Assembly: GCA_024636295.1 (NCBI GenBank)
Contig: JAGXHI010000028.1
Span: 85,565-149,564 of the forward strand
Direction: 5' to 3'
DNA from: Desulfuromonadales bacterium
GTDB taxonomy: Bacteria > Desulfobacterota > Desulfuromonadia > Desulfuromonadales > JAGXHI01
Length of the DNA: 64,000 nt
The notes under the pieces are model-generated. The model was not told where the DNA came from. It searched no databases and worked only from the letters and a program-made list of their open reading frames with translations. Shown here in pieces: positions 1 to 29,361 of this stretch. The translations under genes were made by a program, and so were the position numbers. Position 1 is the stretch's first letter. Each line of letters starts with the position of its first letter.

Positions 1-847
1 CATACCGGCGACGGATCTCCACCCAACGGGGTAACTTGGGCAGGATCTTCCGCCCGATGGCGGCTTGCATTTCGGTCATGCGCCAGTTGCTTCCGAAGGA
101 TTCATGAAGCCAGCGAAAACCGGGAGGATGTTCACGTAAATGAACCGCATCGTAGCTTTTGCCGTGGTCCTTATAGGACCAGGCCTTTTCCCAGATCTCC
201 GGATGGTTGGTGGTCAGCATCCCCCCTTCACCGCCTGTCGTCATGATCTTGTCCTGACAGAAAGAAAAAGCGGCCGCATCCCCGAGCGATCCCACGGCTT
301 TCCCCTTGTAGCGGGCGCCATGGGCCTGTGCACAGTCTTCGATCACCTTCAACCCGTAATCTCGTGCAAGCTCCAGAATGGGATCCATGTCGCAGGGCCA
401 CCCCGCAAGGTGGACCGCAATGATTGCCCGGGTCCGGGGAGATATCGCTTTCCGGATCGTCGCTGCCGTCATATTCTGGCTCACGGGATCCACATCGGCG
501 AAAACCGGAACAGCGCCCCTCAGGACCACCGCACAGGCCGAAGCGATAAACGTACGGCAGGTGGTGATAACTTCGTCGCCGGGGCCGACGCCCAAGGCAT
601 GGAGAGCCAGTTCAAGGGCAACCGTACCGTTCGCCAGAGCGACGGCATGGGAGCAGCCGGTGAATCGGGCGAATTCTTCTTCGAAAAATTTCCCTTCCGT
701 ACCTGTCCATGCATTGACCCTGCCTGAGCGCAGAACGTCCGCAACTGCATCGATCTCGTCCTGCTGGAATTGGGGCCAGGAGGGAAATGGCATGGATCGC
801 ATCCGCCTTCCCCTGATATTATGCTCGGCTGAATAATTTTGGATCAT
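1..847 (-). CDS. DegT/DnrJ/EryC1/StrS family sugar aminotransferase (3' end outside window)
   Basis: PLP-dependent aminotransferase of the DegT/DnrJ/EryC1/StrS family, which places amino groups on nucleotide-linked keto-sugars for surface glycans. Translating the minus strand from the ATG at 847 gives an open frame of 282 codons to the window edge. It contains the family signatures: an N-terminal NAWTGTEGKFFEEEFARF stretch, a glycine-rich cofactor region (ALANGTVALELAL), the DP/E-rich middle (VIEDCAQAHGA) and the internal-aldimine region SFCQDKIMTTGGEGGML carrying the PLP lysine. An AGGAGA Shine-Dalgarno lies about 12 bases upstream of the ATG. The C-terminal third is cut off. It sits at the edge of the polysaccharide locus and probably makes an amino sugar used there; the exact keto-sugar substrate cannot be read. 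Confidence 0.9.
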   Translation of the reverse strand, partial: MIQNYSAEHNIRGRRMRSMPFPSWPQFQQDEIDAVADVLRSGRVNAWTGTEGKFFEEEFARFTGCSHAVALANGTVALELALHALGVGPGDEVITTCRTFIASACAVVLRGAVPVFADVDPVSQNMTAATIRKAISPRTRAIIAVHLAGWPCDMDPILELARDYGLKVIEDCAQAHGARYKGKAVGSLGDAAAFSFCQDKIMTTGGEGGMLTTNHPEIWEKAWSYKDHGKSYDAVHLREHPPGFRWLHESFGSNWRMTEMQAAIGRKILPKLPRWVEIRRRY

Positions 848-1276: not shown

Positions 1277-2326
1277 CTATTGATGTTTTTTAACGATAAA
1301 TTCTTTTAGGATATTCCAAGCATAATCGGGCGAATATAGTTTACTTTTTTCAAATGCGTTTTTTTTCATGGTGCTTAAAAGAGTCCTATCGCGATACAAG
1401 ACGTCTATGAATTGGTGAAATTCATCTTCATTTTCCAAATTAAAAATAAATCCGGTTTTACCTTCATCGACAAACTCCGGTAAATATTTCCAATTTGACA
1501 CAACAACAGGCAAACCTGACATATAAGCGTCCAATATTGTCCCTGGAAATCCCTCGCCAGAATATCTAGTGGGCAAAACAAGCAGATCATATTTTTCCAA
1601 GACACTATAGATGTCCTGAGGTGCTAAAACGCCTTTGTACGATACACATGCATGTTTCGATATTTCATTGAAAAAATATTTATTTTCTGAATGGTCAATT
1701 GGGCCATAAAAATCGATTATAATTTCATTTTTATATTTAGAGTTTTTATCTATATATTCAGCAAGTCTGAAAACGACATCTATACCTTTGTACTTACTTA
1801 TCCTTGCCATAAACACAATTTTAAGACCAATATTGTTCCCCTCAAAGGTTGGAAGATGCGATTGAATACGAAAATTGGGAAAATTTATAACATTATTATA
1901 TTTAAATATAGATGTCAATTTTTCCTTCAATTGATTGCTTTGTACCAAAATACCATCTACTTTTGATAATAAATAAGCATGAAGTTTTTTACTATTTAAG
2001 TATTCTGCCAGCCATCCACCGATCGCTATATACAGGATATTTATATTTTTAAATTTACAAATTAAATAAATGAATGGGAAAAAAAAGGTTAAGCTATTTT
2101 GTGCTGGAATATAGATCAGCATGTCGGAAGAAGCTATTTTTTTGAACATTTTTATAATTCCTATTTTTTCAGTCCTTAATTCACTCGTATCAAAATACTC
2201 AACATTTGCGATAGAATTTGTTTCTTTTTTGATCAATTCATAAACATTCCTTGTTCTTACGGATTGACCATGTAATTTGCTGCTCAAGTATCCGAAATAA
2301 CCAAGTATCAGTATATTTTTTTTCAT
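1277..2326 (-). CDS. GT4-type glycosyltransferase
   Basis: Retaining glycosyltransferase of the GT-B fold, family 4, 349 residues from the chosen start. The N-terminal Rossmann half begins MKKNILILGYFG. The C-terminal half has the typical sugar-nucleotide-binding region (IVFMARISKYKGIDVV, then LLVLPTRYSGEGFPGTILDAYMSG with the GEGFP...E motif). The frame is open 27 codons further upstream, but the ATG at 2326 has an AAAGG ribosome site and aligns with the usual GT4 N-terminus. The gene is markedly AT-rich compared with the endonuclease-like gene upstream, as is common for exchanged polysaccharide genes. Sugar donor and acceptor are unknown. It likely acts at the inner face of the cytoplasmic membrane on a lipid-linked repeat unit. 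Confidence 0.85.
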   Translation of the reverse strand: MKKNILILGYFGYLSSKLHGQSVRTRNVYELIKKETNSIANVEYFDTSELRTEKIGIIKMFKKIASSDMLIYIPAQNSLTFFFPFIYLICKFKNINILYIAIGGWLAEYLNSKKLHAYLLSKVDGILVQSNQLKEKLTSIFKYNNVINFPNFRIQSHLPTFEGNNIGLKIVFMARISKYKGIDVVFRLAEYIDKNSKYKNEIIIDFYGPIDHSENKYFFNEISKHACVSYKGVLAPQDIYSVLEKYDLLVLPTRYSGEGFPGTILDAYMSGLPVVVSNWKYLPEFVDEGKTGFIFNLENEDEFHQFIDVLYRDRTLLSTMKKNAFEKSKLYSPDYAWNILKEFIVKKHQ

Positions 2327-2570
2327 TTCAAACCTTTTAAAGGTTAAAATTGAATTTCTTAAAGCCATAACTGACAATTTCACAGATATATACCCGGCTT
2401 GTGTCATAGCATTTTGCAGTTAGTAAACTTCTGAAAAAAAGTTGCAAAAATTGAATTTTCTTTTAAAAAGATATCCAGGATCCCTCTAAATCCCTTAGAC
2501 CCTCAACCCGAGTTGAGGCGACGGCTAATCTGGATTTGTCCCATCAAATAATCTTTCTGACATTTCAAGA

Positions 2571-3560
2571 ATGGCGAGACCAATGAAATCTCTTTTCTGT
2601 TTTCTGGCATGGCTTTTTGCTCTTGGTTTGATTATTATTCTGATCCTGCGATTTTGGACCGGTGACACTCTAATGCCGGGACGGCTTGTCAGCTACTTCA
2701 TGCCGTGGATCCTCTTTCTCCTCTTCCCGATAATGGTCGCTGCCGGTATCACGCAGCGGACAGCACTGCTGGGAGCCCTTGCGGCTTCTTTTCTTTTCAT
2801 CGGCCTCTCCTATGCTCCGCTTTTTCTACCGTCTGTTAAAAACGTGTGTGCCGCTTCGGGAAGTCTCTCCCTGAAGGTGGTGAGCTACAATATCTGGTCA
2901 CGCAACCCTGACATTTCGGGCATTAGTCGAATTATCCAGAAAATGCGACCGGATATCCTGCTGCTTCAGGAAGTGGAAGGAGATGATTTCATCCATCTTA
3001 CTGAGCACCTCCAGGACCTGTATCCGGATGACCGACCCTATTTCTCCTATGCCCCTTCGATGCTTCAGGCGGTCGTAAGCCGCTATCCCCTGACGCCGAT
3101 CGAGAATGCAACCGCAAAAGGGCAGGCGCAGAAGGTGCGCGTAATCACTCCGGCCGGCGTGGTGACGGTATTCAATGTACATCCTCTTCGCAAGGGAAGC
3201 TGGCAGCGGCGGCACCGCCAGATTTCCGCTCTTCTTCAGGAAGACATCCTGCCCTGTCCGGGACCAGTCATCCTTGGTGGGGATTTCAACACGACGGACC
3301 AGACCCAGACCTATCGCATGCTTTCCCAGCACCTGAAGAACGCTCATTGGGAATCGGGGTGGGGATTCGGATTCTCCTTCCCATCACTTACCTGGAGGCC
3401 AGCGGGAATCCCCTTGCCTCCCCTGATCCGGATCGATCACATTTTTTACAACAATCACTTTACCTCCCGAACGGCAGGCACCCTTAAATTATCTGGGGGG
3501 TCGGATCACTATCCGGTCCATGCAGAACTGCTTCTGGAGGAGGTGGTTTCGCGGCGCTGA
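2571..3560 (+). CDS. membrane-anchored endonuclease/exonuclease/phosphatase (EEP) family protein
   Basis: EEP-fold metal-dependent phosphoesterase, 329 residues. The first ~100 residues contain about three hydrophobic membrane segments. The catalytic domain follows: VVSYNIWSRN (first strand with Asn), ILLLQEVEGDDF (metal-binding Glu), FNVHPL (His), ILGGDFNTTD (the DxN pair) and GGSDHYPVHAELLL (catalytic SDH). All key EEP residues are present, so it should be active on a phosphodiester or phospholipid outside or at the membrane. The start could also be the ATG at 2583; neither has a strong ribosome site. It is the only plus-strand gene in the polysaccharide locus and is convergent with the next gene. 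Substrate is unknown; DNase, sphingomyelinase-like or lipid-linked glycan phosphatase are all possible. Confidence 0.85.
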   Translation: MARPMKSLFCFLAWLFALGLIIILILRFWTGDTLMPGRLVSYFMPWILFLLFPIMVAAGITQRTALLGALAASFLFIGLSYAPLFLPSVKNVCAASGSLSLKVVSYNIWSRNPDISGISRIIQKMRPDILLLQEVEGDDFIHLTEHLQDLYPDDRPYFSYAPSMLQAVVSRYPLTPIENATAKGQAQKVRVITPAGVVTVFNVHPLRKGSWQRRHRQISALLQEDILPCPGPVILGGDFNTTDQTQTYRMLSQHLKNAHWESGWGFGFSFPSLTWRPAGIPLPPLIRIDHIFYNNHFTSRTAGTLKLSGGSDHYPVHAELLLEEVVSRR

Positions 3561-3623: not shown

Positions 3624-4262
3624 TCAGGTCTTCGCCCTTGCCGTTTCGAAAAGGAAAAATCTTTTGGAGAGCACTCTCGGCAGTTCTTCATAACCAACTA
3701 CCCGATGAACCCAGAGGGCCGGAACATTATCGGCCACAAAGCAGCCGTAGGCCTTCTCGACGCCTTTTTCCTTCAATTTATTCAGAACGCATCGAAGGAA
3801 ATGTGTCGTCACCGATTTTCCTCTCTCGTTCTCCTGAACATGCATGTCGAACATGTACACCGCTTCTGGGCAGGAATCGAAATGGAACCAGTCCATGTGC
3901 CGGTGTCGTACGGAAGAGCCTTGCGGGACATACCAGAGATCTCCGATAATTCGATCTCCCCTTCGAAGGACGAAAGCACGGTATCCCATGTTCAGATACC
4001 GGAAAGCCCGCTTATTTCTGCTTGGAAGAGGGAAAACGGCATTGGTCCACCCGACATCCCGCGGCCCGAATTCCTCCACCTGCAGCCCCGCATTTTTCAG
4101 AGCATCTCCGGGAGGGCCGAGGGCGCCCAGGTCCCTGACCACCGGAACGAGTTCTTCCTTCTTGTAGAGGCTCAGCCGAAGAGCGGACAGAAAACCTTCC
4201 TTTTCCCGGTGCTCCAGGAACTGGAGGTATTTAATGTGCAGCAGCAGAAGCAGGTTTTTCAT
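3624..4262 (-). CDS. GNAT-like N-acyltransferase, last gene of the carrier-protein run
   Basis: Small GNAT-type acyltransferase, 212 residues from the chosen start. The second half carries the GNAT signature region (VYMFDMHVQENERGKSVTTHFL, then KGVEKAYGCFVADNVPALWVHRVVGYEEL, the usual acceptor-side strand-helix ending in G-Y/F). The ATG at 4262 has a clear GGAGAAG ribosome site and lies inside the 3' end of the amidohydrolase gene, so the two are translationally coupled; a longer frame starts at 4301. Being last in a run with a carrier protein, adenylation enzyme and dehydrogenase, it is a natural candidate to move the carrier-bound acyl group to an amine such as an amino sugar. That role is inference; a plain acetyl-CoA donor is equally possible from sequence. 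Confidence 0.7.
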   Translation of the reverse strand: MKNLLLLLHIKYLQFLEHREKEGFLSALRLSLYKKEELVPVVRDLGALGPPGDALKNAGLQVEEFGPRDVGWTNAVFPLPSRNKRAFRYLNMGYRAFVLRRGDRIIGDLWYVPQGSSVRHRHMDWFHFDSCPEAVYMFDMHVQENERGKSVTTHFLRCVLNKLKEKGVEKAYGCFVADNVPALWVHRVVGYEELPRVLSKRFFLFETARAKT

Positions 4263-5322
4263 GGTCTTCTCCAAGAAAATTTCGTGGGTTGATGCTTGCA
4301 ATCCTTATCAGTGACCGATGGGCCTTGCGGTTTGCCCCCAATGCATGAAACAGCTTGGCCACTTCCGCATACTGAGTGCGGTAAAGGGCATCGGAGCCGA
4401 AAAGAAGCCGTTCATGGTCCGTTTTCAACAGCATGGACCGAAGAACATTGAACTTGACGCCCGACAGGTCAGCATACAAGTGGTCATGCCGTGAAAGCAG
4501 CCGATTCAGGCGGGGCATGATTTCCCTTTCGGCTTCCCCCTCTCCGAGGCCGAAGGCGCCTCCATGGGCGATAACGACGCTCTCCCTGGTCCGCCCCCAG
4601 TCGATCTCCATCAGCTTCTCCAGCCTTCCGTAATCCCTCGCCTCGGGATTCGGCGCATCGGGGCTGGGACCCGTATGAATCAGGACTTTCAGCCCGTTAG
4701 CTCCTGCGGCATCCAGGATTCCCTCCAATCGTTCCCGCCCCCCGGGGGATTCGGGGTCAATCCCGGTGATGTTGGGATGGATTTTCACCGCCCGGATTTC
4801 GTAGCGCCGCACCGCCTCTGCGAGGTGGTCCCGGAGAGAGGTGATCTCGATCGAATCGGGAACGCAGTACCCGAGCACGAAATCTTCCCGTTCTCCAAAC
4901 AAGCGGACAAGATGCTCCATCTGGGATTCCATCGCCTCTCCGGGGCCTGCAACCGGAACCAGCAGAACCTTCCCCACTCCGCTCAGCCGCATATGGGCCC
5001 TGAAAACCTCCGCCCCGGAGTGAACATACAGTTTCCTGTGGAAAAAGAGCGCGAACCGGGACGACAGGGAATCGCCATGACCAGAGCCGTCCGCCTGCCC
5101 TTCCCCCGGAATTGCCTCGACGGAGGGAGACTTGTACGGAAAGGCTCCGGCGCTGAAGAGGTCGGGCGTTTCCGGATTCGGCTGATAACCGGTCCACCCC
5201 ATGACCGCAAAAGGATGGACATGGATATCCACCAGGGGGTTCGATGCCCCGATCTCACGAACCTGGGCCAGAAGACCTTCCACCTCATCGCGCCTGAACA
5301 TCATTCCTCGCCATGTTTGCAA
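4231..5322 (-). CDS. amidohydrolase-2 family (TIM-barrel metal-dependent hydrolase)
   Basis: Amidohydrolase superfamily protein, about 360 residues, closest in pattern to the Amidohydro_2 / ACMSD-like group. Metal ligands are visible in order: H34-x-H36 (DIHVHPF), the barrel segment AVKIHPN (K180, H182), H216 (LIHTGPS), H253 (VIAHGG) and D311 (LLFGSDA). The frame opens at a TTG (5322) with GGGAG upstream, but ATG codons at 5304 and 5301 are also possible; all overlap the end of the adenylation gene (stop at 5285), so the genes are coupled. Family members hydrolyse C-N bonds or decarboxylate; here the substrate is probably an intermediate or by-product of the carrier-protein pathway, which I infer from position only. 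Confidence 0.8.
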   Translation of the reverse strand: MQTWRGMMFRRDEVEGLLAQVREIGASNPLVDIHVHPFAVMGWTGYQPNPETPDLFSAGAFPYKSPSVEAIPGEGQADGSGHGDSLSSRFALFFHRKLYVHSGAEVFRAHMRLSGVGKVLLVPVAGPGEAMESQMEHLVRLFGEREDFVLGYCVPDSIEITSLRDHLAEAVRRYEIRAVKIHPNITGIDPESPGGRERLEGILDAAGANGLKVLIHTGPSPDAPNPEARDYGRLEKLMEIDWGRTRESVVIAHGGAFGLGEGEAEREIMPRLNRLLSRHDHLYADLSGVKFNVLRSMLLKTDHERLLFGSDALYRTQYAEVAKLFHALGANRKAHRSLIRIASINPRNFLGEDHEKPASAAAH

Positions 5323-6883
5323 AGAGCTCCCGAAGGGCCGCCCGATCGATTTTTCCCCTGTCGGAACGGGGGAGCTTTTCCAGGTAAATGAAGCGTTTCG
5401 GAATCATGTATGCCGGCAGAAGGTTCTTTAATTCCCCATGAATATTCCGGCGGTCCAGGGTCGCCTCACCTTCGAGAAAGGCCGCAATCTCCTGCACTTC
5501 TCCGACTCCGGAATCAATCAGAAACACCGCGGCCTCCCGCACCCCGTTGACTGACATGAGGTGACGCTCGATCTCTTCCGATTCGATCCGGTATCCCATG
5601 TACTTGATCTGGTTGTCCCTGCGCCCGATGAATTCGATATTGCCGTCGGACCGACGGAGGGCAAGGTCGCCCGTCCTGTAAAGACGCTCTCCCGGCTCCC
5701 GGCTCATGGGATCGGAAATAAATGAGGCGACCGTCTTTTCCGGGTCGTTGAAGTACCCCCGGCTCAGGCTGGGCCCTGCAATGCAGAGTTCCCCGGCCTC
5801 CCCGTCCGGGACGGGGCGTCCCTCCTCATCCAGCAGGCACACCCGGGTACCCGCCTTGCAGGGAACGCCGATCGGTATCCTCTCCCCCGGGTTCGGGAGC
5901 CCTGGAACGCGATAATAAAGGGATCCCCCGGTCGCTTCGGTCGGTCCGTAGATGTTGAAGAATTTTTTTTCCGGAAACGTCTCCATCCACTCGATGAGGA
6001 CAGCGGTTGAAAGACTCTCGCCGGCAAACAGGACCCTGTTCAGGGAGGGAATCCGCCCCTTCCGGACGACCCCGGCCCGGGCCATGTACATCAGAAGGGA
6101 GGAAACCCCCTTCCAGATCGTAACCTCCTGCGCTTCCATGAATTCCACCAGCTTCGCGGGGAAGAGGGTGAGGGGCTCGGTGGCGATGCAGAACGTCGCC
6201 CCGGCGCGCAAAGAGGCGAAAATGTCGAAGGTGGACATGTCGAAATGAAATGGCGCGGTCCCGAGAACACGGTCGCCGGGGTCGATACCGAAGCACTCGA
6301 CCGCCCAGTCGATGTAAAGACGGATGTTGAGATGGGAAATCTGGACTCCCTTGGGCCGCCCCGTGGAGCCGGAGGTGTACAGGATGTACGCCAGGTCCGT
6401 TTCGGTGTTCCGGCAAAGCGGCTCCTGCGTGCCGAGGTCCGCGGGATCTTCCAGGGAAAAGGCGTTGGAGCGAAATTCCTCCGGAAATTCACTCAGAGGG
6501 CCCGGCACAACAACGGGAGCTTTCTCCGAAATTCCGGACAAATGGAGGATGGTTGACGAATCACAGATGACGGCGGCCGGACGGCACTCGTCCAGGATGC
6601 GGGCGATCCGCTCCTTCGGGGCCTTTGGGTCCAGCGGGACATAAACAGCATCCGCCTTGAGAATTCCCAAGATAGCGGTAACGCAATGGACGGAACGGGG
6701 CAGAATAAAAACCACTCGATCTTGTCTGCTTACTCCTGCCCTCTTCAGGTACTTTGCGAGGTTGTCGGACAGCCGGGAAAGTTCGCCGTAGCTTATGGAT
6801 CGGCTCCCATCCAGGACTGCGATGGCATCAGGGCGCCTCCGCGCATTTTCTTCGAGATCGTTCTGCATCAGACGGGGAGTCAT
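5285..6883 (-). CDS. stand-alone amino-acid adenylation enzyme (PltF/DltA-like AMP ligase)
   Basis: AMP-forming adenylation enzyme of the NRPS A-domain type, 532 residues from the ATG at 6883, five bases after the upstream stop. Core motifs are intact: YILYTSGSTGRPKGV (A3, residues 167-180), FHFDMSTFD (A4, 212-220), NIYGPTEATGG (A5, 310-320), GELCIAGPSLSRGY (A6), YRTGD (A7, 402-406) and the A10 lysine K511 in RGKIDR. There is no condensation or carrier domain, as in the free enzymes PltF and DltA. Aligning by eye to GrsA gives specificity residues D215, M216, F219, K258, L285, A287, I311, G319, G320, K511. D215 is the residue that holds an alpha-amino group, which argues for an amino acid. 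It should charge the small carrier protein encoded just upstream. Confidence 0.88.
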   Translation of the reverse strand: MTPRLMQNDLEENARRRPDAIAVLDGSRSISYGELSRLSDNLAKYLKRAGVSRQDRVVFILPRSVHCVTAILGILKADAVYVPLDPKAPKERIARILDECRPAAVICDSSTILHLSGISEKAPVVVPGPLSEFPEEFRSNAFSLEDPADLGTQEPLCRNTETDLAYILYTSGSTGRPKGVQISHLNIRLYIDWAVECFGIDPGDRVLGTAPFHFDMSTFDIFASLRAGATFCIATEPLTLFPAKLVEFMEAQEVTIWKGVSSLLMYMARAGVVRKGRIPSLNRVLFAGESLSTAVLIEWMETFPEKKFFNIYGPTEATGGSLYYRVPGLPNPGERIPIGVPCKAGTRVCLLDEEGRPVPDGEAGELCIAGPSLSRGYFNDPEKTVASFISDPMSREPGERLYRTGDLALRRSDGNIEFIGRRDNQIKYMGYRIESEEIERHLMSVNGVREAAVFLIDSGVGEVQEIAAFLEGEATLDRRNIHGELKNLLPAYMIPKRFIYLEKLPRSDRGKIDRAALRELFANMARNDVQAR

Positions 6884-6888
6884 GATCT

Positions 6889-8022
6889 TCAGAGCCCGAT
6901 CAGTCTGGCGATGATGTTCTTCTGCACCTCGGAGGTCCCGGAATAAATGGTGGAGGCGATGCTGTCCCGAAGGTCCCTTTCGATTCCGTATTCGCACATA
7001 TAGCCGTAGCCCCCGTGAATCTGGACCGCATCGAGACAGGCTTTCTTGAGGCTTTCGCTGATGAAGAGCTTGCCTATGGACGCCTCCAGAGGGGCTCTTT
7101 TCTTCTGCTCTTTCATGGAGGCCGATTTAAACAGGATCAGCTTTCCGAGCTCCAGGTTCATCTTCATTTCCGCAATTTTATGGGCGACGGACTGGAATTT
7201 CCCGATAGGCTGTCCAAAGGCGTTGCGCTCGCGGGCGTGCCGGGCGCACGTTTCGAAAATCCGCTCGAGAGTCCCTAGATGGGAGGCCGGCAGAAGGCTG
7301 CGTTCCCATTCCATCGATTCGTTGAAGATGATGGCGCCCTGCCCTTCCCTCCCCAGGAGATTCTCCGCCGGGACAGGGGTGTCCTCGAAGACCAGCTCCC
7401 CGTTCTGAAGACTTTTAAGACCCATCTTCTCCATGGCTCTGCATCGTTCGAATCCCGGAAATTCCTTCTCCACGATAAGGCAGGAAATTCCTCCCAGCGT
7501 CCTGGCCTCCGGATTGGTGACGGCGAAAACGATCACCACATCGGCAAGCGGACCGTTGGAAATAAACATCTTCGAACCGTTCAGAAGAAAAGCGCCCCCT
7601 TCCCACCTGGCCTGCGTGCGCATGGCGAGAGCATCGGACCCGGAACCCGCTTCGGTGATAGCCTGGGCGAAAATTCTCCGCCCGCTGCACAGGTCGGGCA
7701 GATATTTCTTTTTCTGCTCTTCTGTTCCGAACTGCCGGATCTGGAGCCCGCACAGAATCTGGGTGACTACGGCGTGAACGAGCCCCGCATCCCTGCAGGC
7801 ATAACCTAAAGCGTAAATACCCAGGGCCGTACTGAGAAAGTCCACCCCGCAGCCGCCATGCTCCTCGGAAAACGGGAGCCCCATGAGCTGCATTTCGCCA
7901 CATTTCGCCCAGGCCTCCCTGGCGAAGTGATCTCCTTCCACCAGAGGATTGATTTCCTTCAAAGCGAAACGGATGATCGTCTCCCTCAGGACCGCCTGCT
8001 CTTCGGAAAAGGAGAAATCCAC
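6889..8022 (-). CDS. acyl-CoA dehydrogenase-like, probably aminoacyl-carrier dehydrogenase (PltE-like)
   Basis: Full-length acyl-CoA dehydrogenase fold, 377 residues, FAD enzyme making an alpha,beta double bond. Signatures are present: AITEAGSGSD (residues 121-130), NGSKMFISNG (148-157) and the C-terminal HGGYGYMCEYGIERDLRD. The usual catalytic Glu position of SCAD/MCAD (IYEGTS) is Ser here (IYSGTSEVQ). A Glu is instead found at residue 240 (SMEWERSLL), where isovaleryl-CoA dehydrogenase and the prolyl-carrier dehydrogenase PltE have their base. The gene starts two bases after the carrier-protein stop, and the adenylation gene follows it, the same trio that makes pyrrolyl-2-carboxyl-carrier from proline in PltE/PltF/PltL. 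I infer that it oxidises a carrier-bound aminoacyl group rather than a CoA ester. Confidence 0.85.
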   Translation of the reverse strand: MDFSFSEEQAVLRETIIRFALKEINPLVEGDHFAREAWAKCGEMQLMGLPFSEEHGGCGVDFLSTALGIYALGYACRDAGLVHAVVTQILCGLQIRQFGTEEQKKKYLPDLCSGRRIFAQAITEAGSGSDALAMRTQARWEGGAFLLNGSKMFISNGPLADVVIVFAVTNPEARTLGGISCLIVEKEFPGFERCRAMEKMGLKSLQNGELVFEDTPVPAENLLGREGQGAIIFNESMEWERSLLPASHLGTLERIFETCARHARERNAFGQPIGKFQSVAHKIAEMKMNLELGKLILFKSASMKEQKKRAPLEASIGKLFISESLKKACLDAVQIHGGYGYMCEYGIERDLRDSIASTIYSGTSEVQKNIIARLIGL

Positions 8023-8024
8023 GT

Positions 8025-8285
8025 TCAGGCCTCAGTGCGAAGTTCGGTTTTTCGGTCCACCAGCGAAGAGATGGATTCAATGGAGGCGAAGTTTTCCGGA
8101 AGCAGTTCATCCCCCGAGATATGGATCGCAAATTTTTCCTCGAGGAAACCCAGCAGGGCCATGATGCCGAAGGAATCGATAATTCCCTCCTCGATAAGAA
8201 GATCGCTGTCTTTCGGAGGCTCCCCGGCGCCACCGCCCATGAGATCCGAAACGATAAAGCTCCTGATGACGTCCCTGAATGCCAT
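8025..8285 (-). CDS. acyl/peptidyl carrier protein
   Basis: Small four-helix carrier protein, 86 residues. The phosphopantetheine attachment site is the Ser38 in IIDSFGIMALLGFLEEKF, matching the D-S-[LF] signature at the start of helix 2; the following acidic helix is typical for partner docking. A purine-rich AAGGAATCGGAA precedes the ATG. It is first in the run carrier protein, dehydrogenase, adenylation enzyme, amidohydrolase, GNAT, with junctions of two bases, five bases or overlaps, so one transcript is very likely. It is not the housekeeping fatty-acid ACP, judging by its neighbours and by DSF in place of DSL. The bound group is predicted to be an amino acid. Confidence 0.88.
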   Translation of the reverse strand: MAFRDVIRSFIVSDLMGGGAGEPPKDSDLLIEEGIIDSFGIMALLGFLEEKFAIHISGDELLPENFASIESISSLVDRKTELRTEA

Positions 8286-8547: not shown

Positions 8548-9642
8548 TTATAGGTTTTCATTGCCGTGCAGGGTCCTTCGATAGGAGGGAAAATAATTGT
8601 TTTCTTCCTTATCGCCTCCGAATCGTTTCTCCCAAGTCTTATTCAATAGCTTATATCGGTCAGGATCAACAATGATCCGTAGTGAATTGAATTCGCCAGT
8701 TAAATTAGAAAAGCCTTTTTTGAAAGAAAATAATGAATCTTTTTGTCCCCCTACCCCCCCTCCCAGATACAGAAATTGAAAGCCCTGGTCCTTTGCCCAC
8801 CAGCGAACTGAATCAAATAAAAGCTTTGAGGGCGCAAATGAAAGGTATTTTTCGGTTGTTCCTCCTAAATGGTATTGGAGAATCTTGCCATTCCCCAGAA
8901 AAAGGCCAGCGGCAGCAATCTCGCCCCGGTCCGATAGAATGGTCATGAGATTTAATCTTTCGTTTAATTTTTCTTTCAGATTAAGAAAATATTCCTCCGG
9001 GAAAAAATAAAATGGATCCGCCTTTTGTCTTTTCATGGTTTCCCGGTAAATGGAAATAAATTCTGGAAAATCCTTCCAGTCATTTATCTTACATGTAAAC
9101 CCAAGCTTTTTGAGTTTGCCTATATCGCGTCTGTGATTTTCGCGAGTTTGTTTCCAGAGATCTTCTCGAGGGAGGGAAAGTTCGATTCCCAAAGTGGGTC
9201 CATGTTTGACAACAGTTCCAAAATTATTCAATAAATCGGGCTGAAAACTTAGAAATGGATGAAACCGAAGGAAAACAGAAATAATTCCTTTCTCTTTGCA
9301 GAGATCAATAAATTTTGAAAAAAAGAGCGTCGTATTTCTTCCTTTGGTCTCATTCATGATCAGGGGGGCGGAATAACCGTAAGGGGAGGTCACATCGGAC
9401 CATTGGGCTTGACAGTCCAAATATGAGGGGATTTTGCGAAGGATAAGAGGAATCAGAAATTTTGTACTCTCGACTTCGCCCCAGAAGGCGATCGGGTTCC
9501 CACCTTCAAATCTGGCAGTTAAGGAAACATACTCCGGCAAATGATAAATATCATGTTCAACATTCTGAAGAAAATCGCTCCACCTTTTATCGTCAGGTTC
9601 AATAAATGCTATGTTTTTAACATCTCGCATGTTGGAGATCAC
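8548..9642 (-). CDS. FemAB/BioF2-like GNAT-fold acyltransferase
   Basis: Protein of 364 residues resembling the BioF2-like/FemAB group of double GNAT-fold acyltransferases often found in exopolysaccharide loci. Recognisable parts are the N-terminal HDIYHLPEYVSLTARFEGG block, the middle REDLWKQTRENHRRDIGKLKKLG (the substrate-tRNA or acceptor-facing helix region of FemAB proteins), FISIYRETMKRQKADPFYFF, and the C-terminal LQYHLGGTTEKYLSFAPSKLL followed by FLYLGGGVGGQKDSLFSFKKGF. Family members transfer aminoacyl or acyl groups to peptidoglycan or sugars. Start could also be the Met at codon 5. It is a second candidate acceptor-side enzyme for the acyl group made by the nearby carrier-protein operon, but lies in a separate unit. 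Confidence 0.78.
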   Translation of the reverse strand: MISNMRDVKNIAFIEPDDKRWSDFLQNVEHDIYHLPEYVSLTARFEGGNPIAFWGEVESTKFLIPLILRKIPSYLDCQAQWSDVTSPYGYSAPLIMNETKGRNTTLFFSKFIDLCKEKGIISVFLRFHPFLSFQPDLLNNFGTVVKHGPTLGIELSLPREDLWKQTRENHRRDIGKLKKLGFTCKINDWKDFPEFISIYRETMKRQKADPFYFFPEEYFLNLKEKLNERLNLMTILSDRGEIAAAGLFLGNGKILQYHLGGTTEKYLSFAPSKLLFDSVRWWAKDQGFQFLYLGGGVGGQKDSLFSFKKGFSNLTGEFNSLRIIVDPDRYKLLNKTWEKRFGGDKEENNYFPSYRRTLHGNENL

Positions 9643-10993: not shown

Positions 10994-12097
10994 TCAAATT
11001 TTCTCCATAAGGATGCGCACAATTCTTTCCGACGCCTGCCCATCCCACTTTTCAGGGATGCATCCTGCGCGAGCCGTGCCGCAAAGAATCTGTTCAGCAA
11101 CTTTGAGGATGTCCGCTTTTTTATTCCCGACAAGAAAGTTTGTTCCCAATTCGCAGGTTACAGGCCGTTCCGTGTTGTGCCTGAGGGTCACACAGGGAAT
11201 TCCGAGATATGTCGTCTCTTCCTGAAGTCCTCCGCTGTCCGTCAGAACCATCCTTGCGTTAATATTAAGGTGAAGGAATTCGAGATAGCCTAGCGGATCG
11301 GTCAACCAGATTCCCCGAACCGGAAGACATTTTGAGAGGAAATGATCAAGTTGAAAATCCGATATCATTTTGGAAGTACGAGGATGAATCGGAAAAATAA
11401 TTGGAATTTCGGTGGAGATCTGCGCCAGAGCCTCTAAAATCTCCTCAAGGACTTCTTTCTGATCAACATTCGAAGGCCGATGAAGGGTCAAAACTGCGTA
11501 ATCGCCGGCGGCAAGTCCCCATTCCTGTAGAATGGTCAGATGAGACGCTCTTTCCTTATGCTTAATAAGGGTGTCAATCATGACATTCCCGACGAAAAAG
11601 ATTTTGTCTTTAGAGATACCTTCGGCGACCAGGTTCTTGTCCGCCAGGATATCTGTTGTAAACAGAAAATCTGATAAAACATCCGTGCAGAGGCGATTGA
11701 TTTCTTCAGGCATTTCCATGTCCCGCGATCTCAGTCCGGCCTCGACATGGGCAACCCTGATGCCCATTTTTTTTGCAGTAATGGTGCACGCCATGGTTGA
11801 ATTGACATCTCCGACCACCAAAACCAGGTCCGGTTTTTTTTCCAGGCATACTTTTTCAAATTCAACCATTATGCGGGCGGTCTGTTCAGCGTGCGAGCCG
11901 GATCCGATCCCCAGAAAAATGTCGGGTTTAGGCATCCCCAAATCTTCAAAGAACACCTTGCTCATAAGGGCGTCGTAGTGTTGGCCCGTGTGCACAAGAA
12001 GAGGGTCAAGCATAGGATACTTTCCCATTTCCTCCATGATGGGAGCGACTTTCATGAAGTTGGGGCGGGCGCCGACAACGTTGATAATTCTTTTCAT
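10994..12097 (-). CDS. wecB: UDP-N-acetylglucosamine 2-epimerase, non-hydrolysing
   Basis: Non-hydrolysing UDP-GlcNAc 2-epimerase, 367 residues, usual family length. It interconverts UDP-GlcNAc and UDP-ManNAc in the cytoplasm. Signatures visible in order: NVVGARPNFMKVAPI at the N-terminus, VHTGQHYD, VVGDVNST, VAHVEAGLRSRDMEMPEEINR, VLTLHRPSNVD, LTDSGGLQEETTYLG and TLRHNTERPVT, which includes the active-site and UDP-binding residues. It is clustered with glycosyltransferases, so its product is presumably a building block of the surface glycan. The related enzymes for other 2-epimerised diacetamido sugars look similar, so the exact UDP-sugar is not certain. Confidence 0.93.
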   Translation of the reverse strand: MKRIINVVGARPNFMKVAPIMEEMGKYPMLDPLLVHTGQHYDALMSKVFFEDLGMPKPDIFLGIGSGSHAEQTARIMVEFEKVCLEKKPDLVLVVGDVNSTMACTITAKKMGIRVAHVEAGLRSRDMEMPEEINRLCTDVLSDFLFTTDILADKNLVAEGISKDKIFFVGNVMIDTLIKHKERASHLTILQEWGLAAGDYAVLTLHRPSNVDQKEVLEEILEALAQISTEIPIIFPIHPRTSKMISDFQLDHFLSKCLPVRGIWLTDPLGYLEFLHLNINARMVLTDSGGLQEETTYLGIPCVTLRHNTERPVTCELGTNFLVGNKKADILKVAEQILCGTARAGCIPEKWDGQASERIVRILMEKI

Positions 12098-16596: not shown

Positions 16597-17916
16597 TTAT
16601 AAGGAGGTTAATGATGCTGGTTGAAGAATATTTCTGGCCTTTTCATTTTCCTTCACGTTTCTTAATGCAACAGGAATTAATATGATGGTCTGGATAAAGT
16701 AGCTGAGAGCCATTGCATATGCAGCGCCTTGAGCCTTGAATACAGGTACCAGCAGAAAACATGCAAAAAAATTGAGTAACAACATAAATAGCGCTATAAA
16801 AAAATTGTGTGATACCTTATTTAAAATCATATTCAATTGGCCGAATGGCGCTCCTATAGTCCAAAAGAGGAGCATAAAAATTAATATGTTCAAAATTCCG
16901 GCACTTTCGACATATTTTATACCGTATAGAATTGTTATAATGCGTTCCCCGAAAAATATAATGCCAATTACGCCTCCAATCATAAAAAGGCCCATTTTTT
17001 TTGACACTTCATTTATCTTCTTTTTAAGCAGATTAGGACTATTGATGTGGTTTGAAAAATAAGGGAAAGCTGTTCTCAGGATACTTTGCGGTATTAACTG
17101 CAGCCCAAAAACGATTGATGTTGCTATTCCGTAAATAGCAATTTGAGAAAAATCATTGTTCAAATTCTTAATCATAATGACACCCATACTCAAACTAACT
17201 ATTCCGATCAGGTTTCCAAACATACTTAAAACGCCAAATTTTAATAGTTTTGTAATTATTCTTTTATATATTTGAGCTCTATACCAATACTCTCTGGTAA
17301 TGATTAAATAAGATGTTAGACAAATACAATGGTAAAAAATTAGACCTACTATAAAACCAATTGTCTTAAAATAAAAAACACCTAATATTATAAATGCTAT
17401 CGAAAGAAGACCTGAAATACCACTGATGTAGCTCGCAAGCTTAATTTTTTTTATAGATTGAAGATAATTAGAAGAAACTTTTTCCAACGCAAGAAAGGGT
17501 ATAATCAGTGCAGCAAGATACATCGGCGCATTCTCTGAATTAAAAACCGGGTTAGAAATTAAAACGTAAATCATATAAAGAATCAGTATCGATAAACTTG
17601 AAAGGAATGAATAGAATAAGCCTGTCTTAAAAATTCTATTTTTTTCTTCTTCACAGATAGGTTCTGATGCGTACTTAAGGACGCCAGTGCACATCCCCCA
17701 GTCTGATGTCATCCCAAATATACTTAAAATTCTCAGGATATAAATGATAACGCCTAGTTCCACAGGCGACAACATTCTAGCAATTGCAACTTGTTGCACC
17801 AATCCTAGACCTTTAATTCCAAAGACCACAATAAGAACATGGAAGAACCCTTTTTTTTGAAGATTCAAGAAATCTTTATAAGCGATTGATGTAATTTTAG
17901 AAAATTTCAAATTCAT
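16597..17916 (-). CDS. polysaccharide repeat-unit flippase (Wzx/MATE-like)
   Basis: Integral membrane protein of 439 residues with roughly 12-14 hydrophobic segments, of the polysaccharide biosynthesis / MVF-like (Wzx) family. The N-terminal block IVVFGIKGLGLVQQVAIARMLSPVELGVIIYILRI is diagnostic of these flippases. It would move the undecaprenyl-diphosphate-linked repeat unit across the inner membrane for Wzy polymerisation. The gene is very AT-rich. It is the first gene of a run reading down to wecB and is preceded by about 470 bases without a gene. Charged residues inside membrane segments are visible but I do not assign individual roles. Confidence 0.88.
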   Translation of the reverse strand: MNLKFSKITSIAYKDFLNLQKKGFFHVLIVVFGIKGLGLVQQVAIARMLSPVELGVIIYILRILSIFGMTSDWGMCTGVLKYASEPICEEEKNRIFKTGLFYSFLSSLSILILYMIYVLISNPVFNSENAPMYLAALIIPFLALEKVSSNYLQSIKKIKLASYISGISGLLSIAFIILGVFYFKTIGFIVGLIFYHCICLTSYLIITREYWYRAQIYKRIITKLLKFGVLSMFGNLIGIVSLSMGVIMIKNLNNDFSQIAIYGIATSIVFGLQLIPQSILRTAFPYFSNHINSPNLLKKKINEVSKKMGLFMIGGVIGIIFFGERIITILYGIKYVESAGILNILIFMLLFWTIGAPFGQLNMILNKVSHNFFIALFMLLLNFFACFLLVPVFKAQGAAYAMALSYFIQTIILIPVALRNVKENEKARNILQPASLTSL

Positions 17917-18384: not shown

Positions 18385-19434
18385 TCAGCAAAGCATTTTT
18401 GAATAAAGTTCAATAATCTTTTCAACATAGTCCATTCGTGAAACTTCCCTTTGACTTTCCTTTATTTGGTTATAATTTGCAAGAATCCTGTCTATCTGAT
18501 ACACCAAGTCCTCTACATCCCTGTTCTTGAATAATATGCACTCTCCTGGTCTGTCTACTGAATCGGAGGCGATTGTGGGAATTTTCATCTCAATTGCTTC
18601 TTGAAGAGAAAGGCTGAATCCATCCGTAACAGTTGTCCTCAAAAAAATATCTGAATGGTGCAAATAGGGGATCAATTCTCCGCCTCCAATGATCCACAGT
18701 GTATTTTCTGTGATTCCATAGTTCTCAATTCTTTCCCGAAGCTCTGCATAATATTTTTCGTTTCCGATTTCCGAAAGAACAAGAACCAATCCTAATCCTT
18801 CTTTAGCTTTCAATGCATTCAGTGCTTCAATGCACAGGTCAAATCCGTACAGATCTACGTTGTTCAAAATTGATAGACGTGATGCGTTTGAAATAACAAT
18901 TCTTTTATGTTTTTTCCTGAAATCCATAAACGATTTTCTATAGGCAGGAGCAGAGGTTTTGTTTTCTTGCGGTGATATATACGCTGGAATAATATGTATT
19001 TTCTCTGCCCTGACCCCTATCCCTATCAGCTCATTTTTTGCATTTTCACTGACGGTTATGAAATGCCTTATCCGGCAGAACAACCACTGGTGTACTCTTC
19101 TGGTCAGATGATGTTTGAATGAAGTCCTGATCTTGAAACGGTCCCTGATCCTTTCGTTGTGAATGGTTACTATGGTATTTTTTTTCCATAAACTGATTAC
19201 CGCTGCGATCTCGTAGAAATCATGAAAATGAAGAATTTCCTTTTTCGAAAGAACTGACAATACACGCAGGCCCTTCCAGAAACTTTTCAACGGCTTGATT
19301 TCACTCTGACTTGCCTGGGTCTTTCCCCATATGACAACTTTATAGCTTTTTTGCCTCAGGGCTTCCTCCAGCCTTCGGATATGCACTGAAACCCCTCCAT
19401 AGGGGGGTGGATAGGGTCCGATCAAATTTATCAT
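18385..19434 (-). CDS. GT4-type glycosyltransferase
   Basis: Family 4 glycosyltransferase, 349 residues. N-terminus MINLIGPYPPPYGGVSVHIRRLEEAL with the glycine-rich GGVSVH loop is typical. Then comes LHFHDFYEIAAVISLW, TVSENAKNEL, and the donor half with HHSDIFLRTTVTDGFSLSLQEAIEMKIPTIAS, in which Ser replaces the more usual Phe-Gly of the GFG/GFP motif. Its ATG overlaps the stop of the polymerase-like gene (ATGA), so both are translated together. Specificity unknown. Confidence 0.87.
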   Translation of the reverse strand: MINLIGPYPPPYGGVSVHIRRLEEALRQKSYKVVIWGKTQASQSEIKPLKSFWKGLRVLSVLSKKEILHFHDFYEIAAVISLWKKNTIVTIHNERIRDRFKIRTSFKHHLTRRVHQWLFCRIRHFITVSENAKNELIGIGVRAEKIHIIPAYISPQENKTSAPAYRKSFMDFRKKHKRIVISNASRLSILNNVDLYGFDLCIEALNALKAKEGLGLVLVLSEIGNEKYYAELRERIENYGITENTLWIIGGGELIPYLHHSDIFLRTTVTDGFSLSLQEAIEMKIPTIASDSVDRPGECILFKNRDVEDLVYQIDRILANYNQIKESQREVSRMDYVEKIIELYSKMLC

Positions 19435-20891
19435 TTTTCCACACTCACCGGGCGATGACCAATTCTCACCGCCCCAAAGGTTATGCCTAATACAACTCCG
19501 ACGATATGATTCAGTTTTTCCTGATTTGTGAATAAAGGCTCTGTAATTCCAAACATGAGAAATCCAAGCAATATTAAAGTCAAAGCGATGAATATCGGCT
19601 GTTGAAGCTTATCGTTTGAAAAAATTCCCTTTACCGCAGAAAAAAATGGAATAAGAAAAATTCCCAAAAACCCTGTCAATCCGATAAATCCGGTTTTTAT
19701 TAATATTGAGAGATAGATATTGTGAGCATTAGCAAAATAAAGATTTTTTGTTGCCATCAGGAGTCCAAGGAAGTTCTCCCAATACAATCCGATTCCCAAT
19801 GGATAACTTACCGATAAATTAATGACGGTTTTCCATATCTGAAATCTGACATCTTCCGAATGTTGCAAAAAAAAGCGCATAAATGTTTTATGGATATTCC
19901 TAAAAAGCAAATCATCTGTCATGAAATTGATCAGATAAAACAGTAAAATACCTGCCGCCGAAAGGACAACCAGATTGAAAAGTTTTTTGATTTTAGTCAA
20001 ATGAAATAGAATGACCAAAGACAGGATGAAACCCAACAGTGCGACGCCCATTCTGCTTCCGGAAAGCAATAGGGAGAAAAACATCAGGTTGGATGCAACA
20101 AGTACGATCAATTTGGACTTTTTACTAATAATTTTTGAAAACAAAAGGATAACTGAGGGAGGTATCAACATGACGTAAAAGGCAGCCATGGTATTAGGAT
20201 TCCTAAAGAAGCTGCCATATCTCCAATTACGCTCTTGCGTAAGGTCCAGACCTTTATCCAGGCTCAAGTGTCGAATCCCCTCAAAGGACTGTCCGGTGTA
20301 TAAAGAATAAAAATGGCCCATTGCCACCAGACCACCAAAAGCAATCAGCGCGATCAGAAATAATTTCAGATTTATCTTCCTGAACACAGCTAGATATCCA
20401 AGGTAAAAAAATCCGAAAAATTCCAAATAATACGTTTGCAGGCAGTTAATCTCATTTGAGTATTTGGTGAACAGGAAGGAGCCAATATAAGCTGATAAAA
20501 TTGCACTTGTAATAAAAATAATCCAGAATAATAAATATATGTCAAGTTTTGGCACCTTTTCTTTAAAAATCAATTCGTATGCAAGAATACAAATTAAAAG
20601 GATTAGGCTCACATTGAAGGAGAATCCGCCAAGTTTTTCATCGAACCAGTTTCTGAAGATAAAAATATCATCAACAACTAGAATTACGCCGAATATTAAG
20701 GCGATTTTTATAATAAAATTTCTGGTTTTTATTATTGGATAGACTAAAAATGGAGCAACTGTTAAATACATTGTCCACTTGAGGCTCCTGTTCATCATAA
20801 AATTGAGCGCAAAAGCAAACATAAATGCCATAGATGCAGTCATGGCATATACAAGCAAATCATTAAAGCTTTGAAGTTTTTCGCTCTTCAT
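19431..20891 (-). CDS. O-antigen polymerase/ligase family membrane protein (Wzy or WaaL type)
   Basis: Polytopic membrane protein of 486 residues with about 11-12 hydrophobic segments and a large periplasmic loop between residues ~190 and ~240 and again ~330-390, the layout of the O-antigen ligase/Wzy family. The block FFSLLLSGSRMGVALLGFILSLVILF contains the conserved SRxG motif of the Wzy_C region, and FANAHNIYLSILIKTGFIGL holds the characteristic H-N pair. The chosen ATG is at 20891; a TTG six bases upstream is possible. Ten bases separate it from the upstream beta-helix lyase gene. Polymerase is favoured over ligase because a flippase lies in the same run and no other Wzy is seen. Confidence 0.85.
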   Translation of the reverse strand: MKSEKLQSFNDLLVYAMTASMAFMFAFALNFMMNRSLKWTMYLTVAPFLVYPIIKTRNFIIKIALIFGVILVVDDIFIFRNWFDEKLGGFSFNVSLILLICILAYELIFKEKVPKLDIYLLFWIIFITSAILSAYIGSFLFTKYSNEINCLQTYYLEFFGFFYLGYLAVFRKINLKLFLIALIAFGGLVAMGHFYSLYTGQSFEGIRHLSLDKGLDLTQERNWRYGSFFRNPNTMAAFYVMLIPPSVILLFSKIISKKSKLIVLVASNLMFFSLLLSGSRMGVALLGFILSLVILFHLTKIKKLFNLVVLSAAGILLFYLINFMTDDLLFRNIHKTFMRFFLQHSEDVRFQIWKTVINLSVSYPLGIGLYWENFLGLLMATKNLYFANAHNIYLSILIKTGFIGLTGFLGIFLIPFFSAVKGIFSNDKLQQPIFIALTLILLGFLMFGITEPLFTNQEKLNHIVGVVLGITFGAVRIGHRPVSVEK

Positions 20892-20901
20892 TATCAATGT
20901 T

Positions 20902-27656: not shown

Positions 27657-28340
27657 TTAATATATTTTCCGAACGAGTATAAATGCCTCCGCTGCTGCTA
27701 TACCCACTGAACACCCGCGAAACTTTGCCAGTGCCTCAACTCCTTCCAAGGAACGAGCATCAGGAAATTCGCGGATCTGGCTTTGATACTTGGAAAGAGC
27801 CTGGAGCTTTTTTCGCAGGTTCTCTCCGGAAATATCTATGTAAGCATTAGGCAAAAAACCACCTTCCTGCTGGTGAATGTTCCAATGTGTCTCTGAAAGT
27901 GTCTCATACATGTAAATTTCCCTGATCATTTTTCCCACTTCCTTAATCGGTCGCCACGCGACATTTGCAGCATAGACAATCTCTCTGTGATCACGATGCA
28001 GGTCATAAAGGAAGGGGATAAAAAGAATTTCGGGTTGAATTTCTTCAATGGCCATTCCAACTATCCTATTCACCTCATAAACTGGCTTATCCGGAACCAA
28101 AACAGCCGGCAACTCCTTAAAAAGTGTATCTTCGACACCTAATATTCTGTGCGCTTCCAGAGCTTCGGATCGAATCAAAGACCAATGTTCTTTGGGCCAA
28201 ATCGGATGGGGAGATTCACCATGCCCCGTCAATACTGCCACAAAGACCTTGTGACCCTCTGAGCTGAAACGTGCTATGGATCCGCCTACCCCCAGAACCT
28301 CGTCATCGGCGTGTGGAGCAATAATCAAAATTCGGGACAT
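27657..28340 (-). CDS. PIG-L/LmbE-family N-deacetylase
   Basis: Zinc-dependent deacetylase of the PIG-L/LmbE family, 227 residues. The metal site is visible: N-terminal ILIIAPHADDEVLGVGGSIA (PHxDDE) and the third ligand region FLYDLHRDHREIVYAA (HxDH). Members remove acetyl groups from GlcNAc-type sugars in PI, mycothiol, bacillithiol or teicoplanin-like compounds. Here it lies ten bases after a sugar-formyltransferase gene, so a logical sequence is removal of N-acetyl from a glycan precursor followed by re-acylation with formyl. That order is inference. It is the last gene of the short run PGT, formyltransferase, deacetylase. Confidence 0.9.
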   Translation of the reverse strand: MSRILIIAPHADDEVLGVGGSIARFSSEGHKVFVAVLTGHGESPHPIWPKEHWSLIRSEALEAHRILGVEDTLFKELPAVLVPDKPVYEVNRIVGMAIEEIQPEILFIPFLYDLHRDHREIVYAANVAWRPIKEVGKMIREIYMYETLSETHWNIHQQEGGFLPNAYIDISGENLRKKLQALSKYQSQIREFPDARSLEGVEALAKFRGCSVGIAAAEAFILVRKIY

Positions 28341-28350
28341 AGGGTACCTT

Positions 28351-29361
28351 TCAGGAGACCGTCTGATCTTTAAGAAGTTTTTCTTTTAGTATGCTTATTT
28401 CGTTTTTCAATTTGAAAATCTCATCTTGGATCGTATATCCCAAGCGTTGACCAACTCTGAGCTTAACAGGTGATTGAGGATCTTGGGCATCTTTAATATC
28501 CCTCAACCACAGCAGCCCATCTCCGGCCTGAACCAGAGCACCACGCTTCTTACATAAGAGAAGGATTCTTCCAGGAACCCCGCGCCATGGCATGACATTG
28601 GCCGGTTCAACTTTCCAGATGATGATCTTGCGATCATCAGCGTAGGTATATGCCCCTGGATGGGGGGAAGAAGCGGCACGAATGCGGGCACAAGTGACTT
28701 GCCAGGGCTCTCCCCAGTCTATGAGACCGTCTGCAGGGCGTCTGATTCCAGTGTAGGTTGCCAACGATTCATCCTGTGGTATCGCATACCATTCTCCCTT
28801 AATCAGATCAGGAACCCACCTGTCCAAAGCTCTATCAATAGCAGCAAGAATTTTATCATTAACATCTCCTGCATGATCATTGGAACTTGCTGTAAAAGGT
28901 TCTTGCGCAAGGATCGGCCCATCATCTATTCCTTTGCCCATAATGAAAAATGTAGCAGCCCCATCTGCTGCATCATAGGTAAGCCAGGCCAAAGGTGCTC
29001 GCCCTCGCCCACGCGGCAACAAGGTAGGGTGAAATCCCACCGTTCCACGAGTGGGAATTGCCAGTATCTCCTCGCCGATCAGTTGGGAGAAGCCGACAGC
29101 AAAAAGAACATCCGGTACAAGAGATCGTATTGAGCTGATCGTTGCCGGATCATTTACCTGAATAAACGTCTTGAAAGGAATCCCTTTCTCTTGGCAAAAA
29201 GATGAAATTTTCGCTGTCGAAAACCCACTTACCATAGAGGCGGCTGAATAATCCAACGAAAGAACTCCGACGAGATGGGCGCCGCTACGAACTAACCCCT
29301 GAGCGATTCTCAACGTGCTTAAGGTGGCGCCGACGACAACAATTCGAAAGCCATGAGCCAT
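28351..29361 (-). CDS. sugar N-formyltransferase-like protein (ArnA/Fmt fold)
   Basis: Formyltransferase with N-terminal Rossmann-like catalytic domain and a C-terminal Fmt_C-type domain, 336 residues from ATG 29361, which has an AAAGGAGT site; the longer frame from 29409 would overlap the upstream gene. The catalytic region reads TVGFHPTLLPRGRGRAPLAW and MGKGIDDGPIL: His111 and Asp146 of the usual Asn-His-Asp triad are present, but Gly109 stands where Fmt and ArnA have Asn. The C-terminal domain shows GLIDWGEPWQVTCARIRA, as in ArnA-type enzymes, followed by a short coiled coil (IFKLKNEISILKEKLLKDQ). Between a phosphoglycosyl transferase and a deacetylase, it most likely formylates an amino sugar from formyl-THF. 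Confidence 0.85.
   Translation of the reverse strand: MAHGFRIVVVGATLSTLRIAQGLVRSGAHLVGVLSLDYSAASMVSGFSTAKISSFCQEKGIPFKTFIQVNDPATISSIRSLVPDVLFAVGFSQLIGEEILAIPTRGTVGFHPTLLPRGRGRAPLAWLTYDAADGAATFFIMGKGIDDGPILAQEPFTASSNDHAGDVNDKILAAIDRALDRWVPDLIKGEWYAIPQDESLATYTGIRRPADGLIDWGEPWQVTCARIRAASSPHPGAYTYADDRKIIIWKVEPANVMPWRGVPGRILLLCKKRGALVQAGDGLLWLRDIKDAQDPQSPVKLRVGQRLGYTIQDEIFKLKNEISILKEKLLKDQTVS

Follow-up and report, generated by a model that had tools for sequence, protein, structure and literature searches.

The closest described relatives of the gene set reported here are the thiotemplated pyrrole trios (PltL/PltF/PltE, PigG/PigI/PigA, RedO/RedM/RedW, and Bmp), which likewise encode, in adjacent genes, a stand-alone carrier and adenylase and a dehydrogenase of the acyl-CoA dehydrogenase (ACAD) fold with a Glu in a WER motif. 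Dlt D-alanylation (DltA/DltC) also uses a stand-alone adenylase and carrier to feed a cell-envelope polymer, and the UDP-bacillosamine pathway (PglF-PglE-PglD-PglC) similarly brings together a 4,6-dehydratase, a DegT-type aminotransferase, an N-acyltransferase, and a phosphoglycosyl transferase. ACMSD and related decarboxylases of the amidohydrolase superfamily offer a further parallel in their TIM-barrel fold, HxH-H-H-D residues, and α-amino-β-carboxy-ene substrate, the counterparts of which are predicted or plausible here. In a 64,000-nucleotide stretch of a Desulfuromonadales genome (contig JAGXHI010000028.1, positions 85,565 to 149,564; hereafter the window), a cassette at 3624-8285 on the minus strand encodes a carrier, a PltE-type dehydrogenase, an adenylase, an amidohydrolase, and a GNAT in the midst of a Wzx/Wzy-type polysaccharide locus. 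We consider it probable, with considerable room for doubt, that the cassette carries out carrier-bound dehydrogenation of an amino acid other than proline, followed by N-acylation of a glycan amino sugar. No relevant report of this gene combination was found in the open-access literature.

Organization and recurrence of the cassette

The first gene of the cassette (8025..8285) encodes a stand-alone acyl carrier protein of 86 amino acids (aa) with the phosphopantetheine serine, Ser38, in the motif GIIDSFG. Although below every curated profile cut-off, it resembles PltL, PigG, and other stand-alone carriers, as indicated by phmmer matches to carriers in the PDB (2my5, 2e-9; PltL 2n5h, 1e-5; PigG 7thn, 6e-5), and the DS motif including Ser38 is kept in its relatives. 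After a gap of 2 bases comes the aminoacyl-carrier dehydrogenase (6889..8022), assigned by PDB match and tree, and after another 5 bases the stand-alone amino acid adenylase (5285..6883, ATG at 6883). The gene for the metal amidohydrolase (4231..5304, or with a start at 5322; PF04909) overlaps the end of the adenylase gene and is itself overlapped at its end by the gene for the GNAT-fold N-acyltransferase (3624..4262, or with a start at 4301).

The source genome stands near Geobacter relatives (glutamyl-tRNA synthetase, 64% identity to Geomonas), in keeping with the class Desulfuromonadia, and conservation was assessed in 277 genomes of what is probably this class, 136 of them from the same order. 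The amidohydrolase was detected in 15 of the 136 genomes of the order and in 3 more of the class, and these 18 are exactly the genomes with a high-scoring dehydrogenase (683 to 758 bits), while a second group of 27 genomes (480 to 520 bits) lacks the amidohydrolase. The order carrier-dehydrogenase-adenylase-amidohydrolase is kept in the 18 wherever the contig allows; contig ends divide or truncate it in three genomes. The gene for the GNAT usually comes next, and a few genomes carry it at another place within the locus. In two genomes it was not detected, and one of these runs is truncated at a contig end. Searches beyond these genomes gave no relative of the amidohydrolase: none among 394 others sampled across the same phylum, none in viral contigs, and, in searches run without a positive control, none among 195 genomes from the Anaeromyxobacter phylum and 247 from the Acidobacteriaceae phylum. 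Polysaccharide genes lie nearby in 14 of the 18 cassette genomes (two others, G122 and G131, have it on short contigs of 4 to 10 kb that show little of the surroundings), and in several loci the cassette forms part of one same-strand gene series with a sugar aminotransferase and a phosphoglycosyl transferase. The gene content, order, co-occurrence, and context of the cassette are firm. The initial annotation had described a closely spaced run of five genes, flanked by surface-glycan genes and with no nonribosomal peptide synthetase (NRPS) or polyketide synthase (PKS) in sight; the run is confirmed, and no NRPS or PKS was present among the large open reading frames scanned in the window.

Predicted amino acid substrate and its oxidation

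The adenylase belongs to PF00501 and reaches 397 bits against the amino acid adenylation profile TIGR01733 (cut-off, 317), while falling short of the DltA equivalogs (PRK04813, 323 versus 476 bits; TIGR01734, 322 versus 560 bits) and of the XrtA/PEP-CTERM-associated AMP ligase (TIGR03098, 262 versus 592 bits). Its pocket code, read at the standard GrsA positions by motif alignment, is D-M-F-K-L-A-I-G-G-K, and all 15 relatives read share D-M-F-K-[LI]-[AG]-x-G-x-K with an invariant Lys278 (K278 type). The adenylases of the 13 inspected among the 27 lower-scoring genomes (L158 to L170, e.g., L161 at 5000-15000) show instead D-[LM]-F-N-[HIL]-[SA]-x-S-S-K with Asn278 (N278 type).

The dehydrogenase (PF02771/02770/00441) shows 54 to 68% identity among relatives, and its best PDB match is the prolyl-ACP dehydrogenase 4irn (343 bits; generic ACADs, ≤265 bits). 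In the dehydrogenase tree, carrier-type ACADs split from generic ACADs (100/100), the dehydrogenases of the K278 cassettes form one clade (100/99), and those of the N278 systems form another (100/99); four prolyl dehydrogenases fall outside both cassette groups without firmly making up one clade (43/45 in a larger tree). Seven positions in conserved motifs (H83, T87, Q88, Q120, Q206, N207, and E235) change together and set the K278 clade apart. Glu240, the catalytic residue, is invariant among relatives in a WE[R/K] motif and aligns with the Glu whose catalytic role has been described for AnaB/Bmp3 (PMC10849742); the same Glu is Ala in PigA entry 6af6 as compared with 5zw0. Judged from sequence, the dehydrogenase is thus a member of the carrier-bound aminoacyl branch of the ACADs.

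Likeness to PltL/PltF/PltE would suggest pyrrole chemistry, in which proline would be loaded, oxidized to a pyrrolyl-2-carboxyl group, and used on the glycan. Such a pathway would draw on a three-enzyme logic that is already known (PMC10849742), and the nearest solved dehydrogenase does act on a prolyl carrier. However, the cassette adenylase has Lys278 and Gly330, unlike two proline-type comparators from other groups (L038 and L039) that, when aligned alongside it, show Tyr278 and a DLLYLALVCK-like proline code, and the dehydrogenase lies outside the prolyl-carrier sequences, in its separate clade and with a different pocket motif. Membership in the thiotemplated pyrrole family was rejected on these grounds, and we regard a proline-based route as very improbable. 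Both comparators were found among the matches listed from a search of genome contigs with the dehydrogenase alignment, most of the matches listed being generic ACADs. One of them, a Desulfobulbaceae locus (L038:1128-13101), combines a proline-code adenylase, a prolyl-type dehydrogenase (483 bits to 4irn), a carrier, electron-transfer flavoprotein (ETF), and an HdrD-like protein near a phosphoglycosyl transferase, and possibly specifies pyrrole or pyrroline decoration of a glycan. In the other, from Acidobacteriaceae (L039:9968-20583), NRPS-like adenylation genes come after the proline-type trio, and the locus likely makes a pyrrole-containing natural product.

The substrate of the K278 cassette is probably an amino acid other than proline. 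Since Lys278 is invariant and the dehydrogenases form a separate clade with positions of their own, our best guess, and only a guess, is an acidic amino acid, with aspartate as the first candidate; the Asp code of surfactin, DLTKVGHI, also has Lys at position 278 (PMC3207962). The adenylase would then activate an acidic or strongly polar amino acid, most likely aspartate, and load it onto Ser38 of the carrier. The dehydrogenase would remove two electrons across Cα/Cβ and pass them to ETF and, by way of the HdrD-like protein, on to the quinone pool of the membrane, yielding, if the substrate is aspartate, a 2-aminofumaryl- or 2-iminosuccinyl-S-carrier.

Genes for such an electron route accompany the dehydrogenase in part of the set. 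ETF alpha/beta genes adjoin it in 8 of the 18 cassette genomes (in L031, ETF alpha carries ferredoxin domains), and an HdrD-like protein with an Fe-S/CCG region and a weak cytochrome b-like domain is encoded beside the cassette in 3 of the 18, a domain set that we take to resemble the ETF:menaquinone oxidoreductases of Geobacter. Oxidation is favored as the direction of the reaction because these genes adjoin the dehydrogenase.

The amidohydrolase and the N278 sister operon

In 27 of the 277 genomes, an apparently undescribed operon encodes the carrier, dehydrogenase, and adenylase, often with ETF, an HdrD-like protein, and a GNAT, but without an amidohydrolase. The code of its adenylase is presumably closest to those for small amino acids, and a small amino acid is probably its substrate. 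In L158 to L161, the series runs, with small variations, ETF-ETF-HdrD-carrier-dehydrogenase-adenylase-GNAT-(phosphoglycosyl transferase)-EEP-DegT-4,6-dehydratase (L160 begins at the dehydrogenase, at a contig end, and no EEP gene was detected in L159), and the amidohydrolase is the sole core gene missing. The distance from the end of the adenylase gene to the end of the GNAT gene, 639 to 697 bp in L159 to L161, corresponds to the GNAT length alone, compared with 1661 to 1871 bp in most K278 loci. Because the GNAT, DegT, and EEP trees mix K278 and N278 types whereas the dehydrogenase tree keeps them apart, the transferase and sugar genes appear to be exchangeable between the two types, with the amidohydrolase accompanying the changed adenylase pocket. 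Because the amidohydrolase is the single core gene that separates the cassette from this near-identical sister operon, its most likely target is the acyl chain rather than the sugar, and it would most likely process the extra side-chain group read by Lys278.

A sequence search of the PDB with the amidohydrolase gave nothing useful, so a predicted structure was used. The AlphaFold model (pLDDT, 85) has isoorotate decarboxylase, LigI, and γ-resorcylate decarboxylase as top Foldseek matches, and ACMSD and LigJ were also matched. The ACMSD-type HxH...H...H...D metal/catalytic set is invariant (H34, H36, H216, H253, and D311). ACMSD decarboxylates an α-amino-β-carboxy-ene, and it also tautomerizes oxaloacetate without decarboxylation (PMC11650718). 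A dehydro-aspartyl thioester would present the same grouping, and, by this analogy, we favor decarboxylation over hydration or deamination: acting on the carrier-bound acyl group, the amidohydrolase would most likely remove the extra side-chain group by decarboxylation, as ACMSD does, and leave a dehydroalanyl thioester or, after imine hydrolysis, a pyruvyl thioester. This specific version, with aspartate and decarboxylation, is put forward tentatively and is distinctly less secure than the general scheme.

Within the same scheme, the amidohydrolase might instead hydrate or deaminate the unsaturated thioester, so that a β-hydroxyaspartyl or oxaloacetyl group would result in place of dehydroalanyl. 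The fold group includes the hydratase LigJ and the hydrolase LigI, the tautomerization by ACMSD would suit such a role, and dehydrogenation followed by hydration would mimic β-oxidation and allow an anaerobe to hydroxylate without O2. The GNATs, however, are interchangeable with those of an operon that has no amidohydrolase, which fits the loss of an extra group better than the gain of one, and we judge this variant to be rather unlikely. Some members of the amidohydrolase superfamily, such as NagA and D-aminoacylase, are deacylases, so that the enzyme could alternatively deacetylate a sugar nucleotide to the free amine, independently of an aminoacyl group made by the other cassette proteins. 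Against this, the N278 loci have the same 4,6-dehydratase, DegT, GNAT, and phosphoglycosyl transferase without an amidohydrolase, and the presence of the amidohydrolase follows the adenylase type in 18 of 18 genomes, making sugar deacetylation quite improbable.

Returning to the overall scheme, several observations weigh against it. Lys278 is nearly a single-residue argument, with the remainder of the code fitting no known Asp code. AcrC (acryloyl-CoA reductase) profiles also score on the dehydrogenase, so that the redox direction is only predicted, and in the source genome ETF does not adjoin the cassette, the ETF match lying on another contig (C6). As judged from conservation, the substrate-binding Arg51/Arg239 of ACMSD have no invariant counterpart in the amidohydrolase, which has no invariant Arg; Lys180, His182, Tyr46, and Tyr63 are conserved instead. 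The fold group, moreover, includes hydrolases and a hydratase besides decarboxylases, and no GNAT was found near the cassette in one genome (G108).

Amino-sugar context and comparison with known systems

The GNAT is weakly matched by Acetyltransf_1 (PF00583), and its model (pLDDT, 89) resembles GNATs that include glucosamine N-acetyltransferases and WecD. It is tied to an amino sugar by its position in one genome (G012), where it adjoins DegT away from the cassette. A homologue of the DegT aminotransferase is present in 13 of the 18 cassette genomes, in many of these loci together with a PglF/PseB-type 4,6-dehydratase and a phosphoglycosyl transferase, and an EEP phosphatase homologue lies close to the cassette in seven K278 and three N278 loci. 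Because the cassette adjoins these 4-amino-sugar genes, amino-sugar decoration is the best reading of its context; aspartyl amides on amino sugars are known in other bacteria (PMC10609480). As acceptor of the acyl group, the GNAT would use the amino group of a 4-amino-6-deoxy sugar nucleotide, itself produced by the 4,6-dehydratase and DegT of the same locus, and the acylated sugar would then enter the Wzx/Wzy polysaccharide.

A small molecule or lipid headgroup might also be the product, with the polysaccharide neighborhood being incidental. Two Geobacteraceae-like cassettes (L036 and L037), both near contig ends, show no recognized glycan gene in the visible flank, which also counts against the glycan assignment, and in L027 an additional adenylation-carrier-thioesterase protein (860 aa; 2805-5384) follows straight after the GNAT of the K278 cassette, adjoined by a 2-hydroxyacid dehydrogenase. 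The polysaccharide surroundings in 14 of 18 genomes, with the several same-strand series, make such a product improbable. Of the proposal in the initial annotation that an oxidized aminoacyl group decorates a glycan or amino sugar, the decoration is supported by the glycan context and the 4-amino-sugar genes, and the oxidation by the carrier-branch dehydrogenase; the pyrrole-type chemistry of the related trio probably does not apply.

The remaining genes of the window complete the picture of the locus. An EEP-family phosphatase with a hydrophobic N-terminal part, VanJ-like (2571..3560, plus strand; PF03372, weak vanJ NF000373), adjoins the cassette; the genes listed next, down to the phosphoglycosyl transferase at 27657..30028, are on the minus strand. 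They comprise a group 1 glycosyltransferase (1277..2407; PF00534), the N-terminal part of the DegT/DnrJ/EryC1 sugar aminotransferase (1..847), and, upstream of the cassette, a FemAB/Acetyltransf_6-like transferase (8548..9642; PF13480, PF02388) with a homologue in L031 (298 bits). Farther along lie a UDP-GlcNAc 2-epimerase (WecB; 10994..12097; TIGR00236, 324 bits), a Wzx-type flippase (16597..17916; PF13440), and a Wzy-type polymerase/ligase (19431..20897; PF04932). The DegT gene extends past the start of the window and is complete at L121:227-1612 (PseC profile, 238 bits, under the cut-off); with the 4,6-dehydratase (L119:17301-19220), it lies directly downstream of the window genes, and the same strand continues with an outer-membrane barrel, a Wza-type exporter, a Wzz/tyrosine kinase, and CpsB/CapC. 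A PIG-L deacetylase, an ArnA-like formyltransferase, and a phosphoglycosyl transferase (Bac_transf) are consecutive at 27657..30028 (PF02585, PF00551, PF02397), perhaps a second, formyl-type amino-sugar modification of the same polysaccharide. Large Big_7 (bacterial Ig-like) repeat proteins also occur within the locus (22364-26883 and 30328-32655), and an M81/MlrC-family metallopeptidase (38053-39552) lies close to a branched-chain amino acid ABC transporter.

Taken in full detail, the proposal would mean that anaerobic Desulfuromonadia have a class of glycan decoration not known before, in which aspartate is dehydrogenated via ETF/menaquinone, decarboxylated, and amide-linked as a dehydroalanyl or pyruvyl group to a 4-amino sugar. 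The N278 operon would arrive at this group with no decarboxylase, starting from a small amino acid. As a whole, we hold this to be speculative and rather unlikely. Two versions of one operon, which differ in the amidohydrolase and, in step with it, in the adenylase pocket, provide a natural comparison in which the substrate, the amidohydrolase reaction, and the decoration are directly testable.

Compared with ACMSD, the cassette amidohydrolase shows only ∼13% identity, does not conserve Arg51/Arg239, and probably has a carrier-bound substrate. Relative to the Dlt system, the cassette adds oxidation and amidohydrolase steps, and no DltB or DltD was found among the annotated window genes. In contrast to the UDP-bacillosamine pathway, the acyl group would come from a carrier, and a GNAT whose fold neighbors include WecD stands in place of the PglD-type acetyltransferase, none of which was found among the annotated genes of the locus. 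From the pyrrole trios, the cassette differs in its Lys278 pocket, separate dehydrogenase clade, amidohydrolase and GNAT, glycan context, and likely use of ETF as the acceptor. The cassette points to a prolyl-oxidase reaction in an ETF/quinone-linked form, as does the proline-type trio of L038. It would also carry the thiotemplated oxidation of amino acids, familiar from secondary metabolites, into the surface polysaccharides of mostly anaerobic bacteria in the class of Geobacter.

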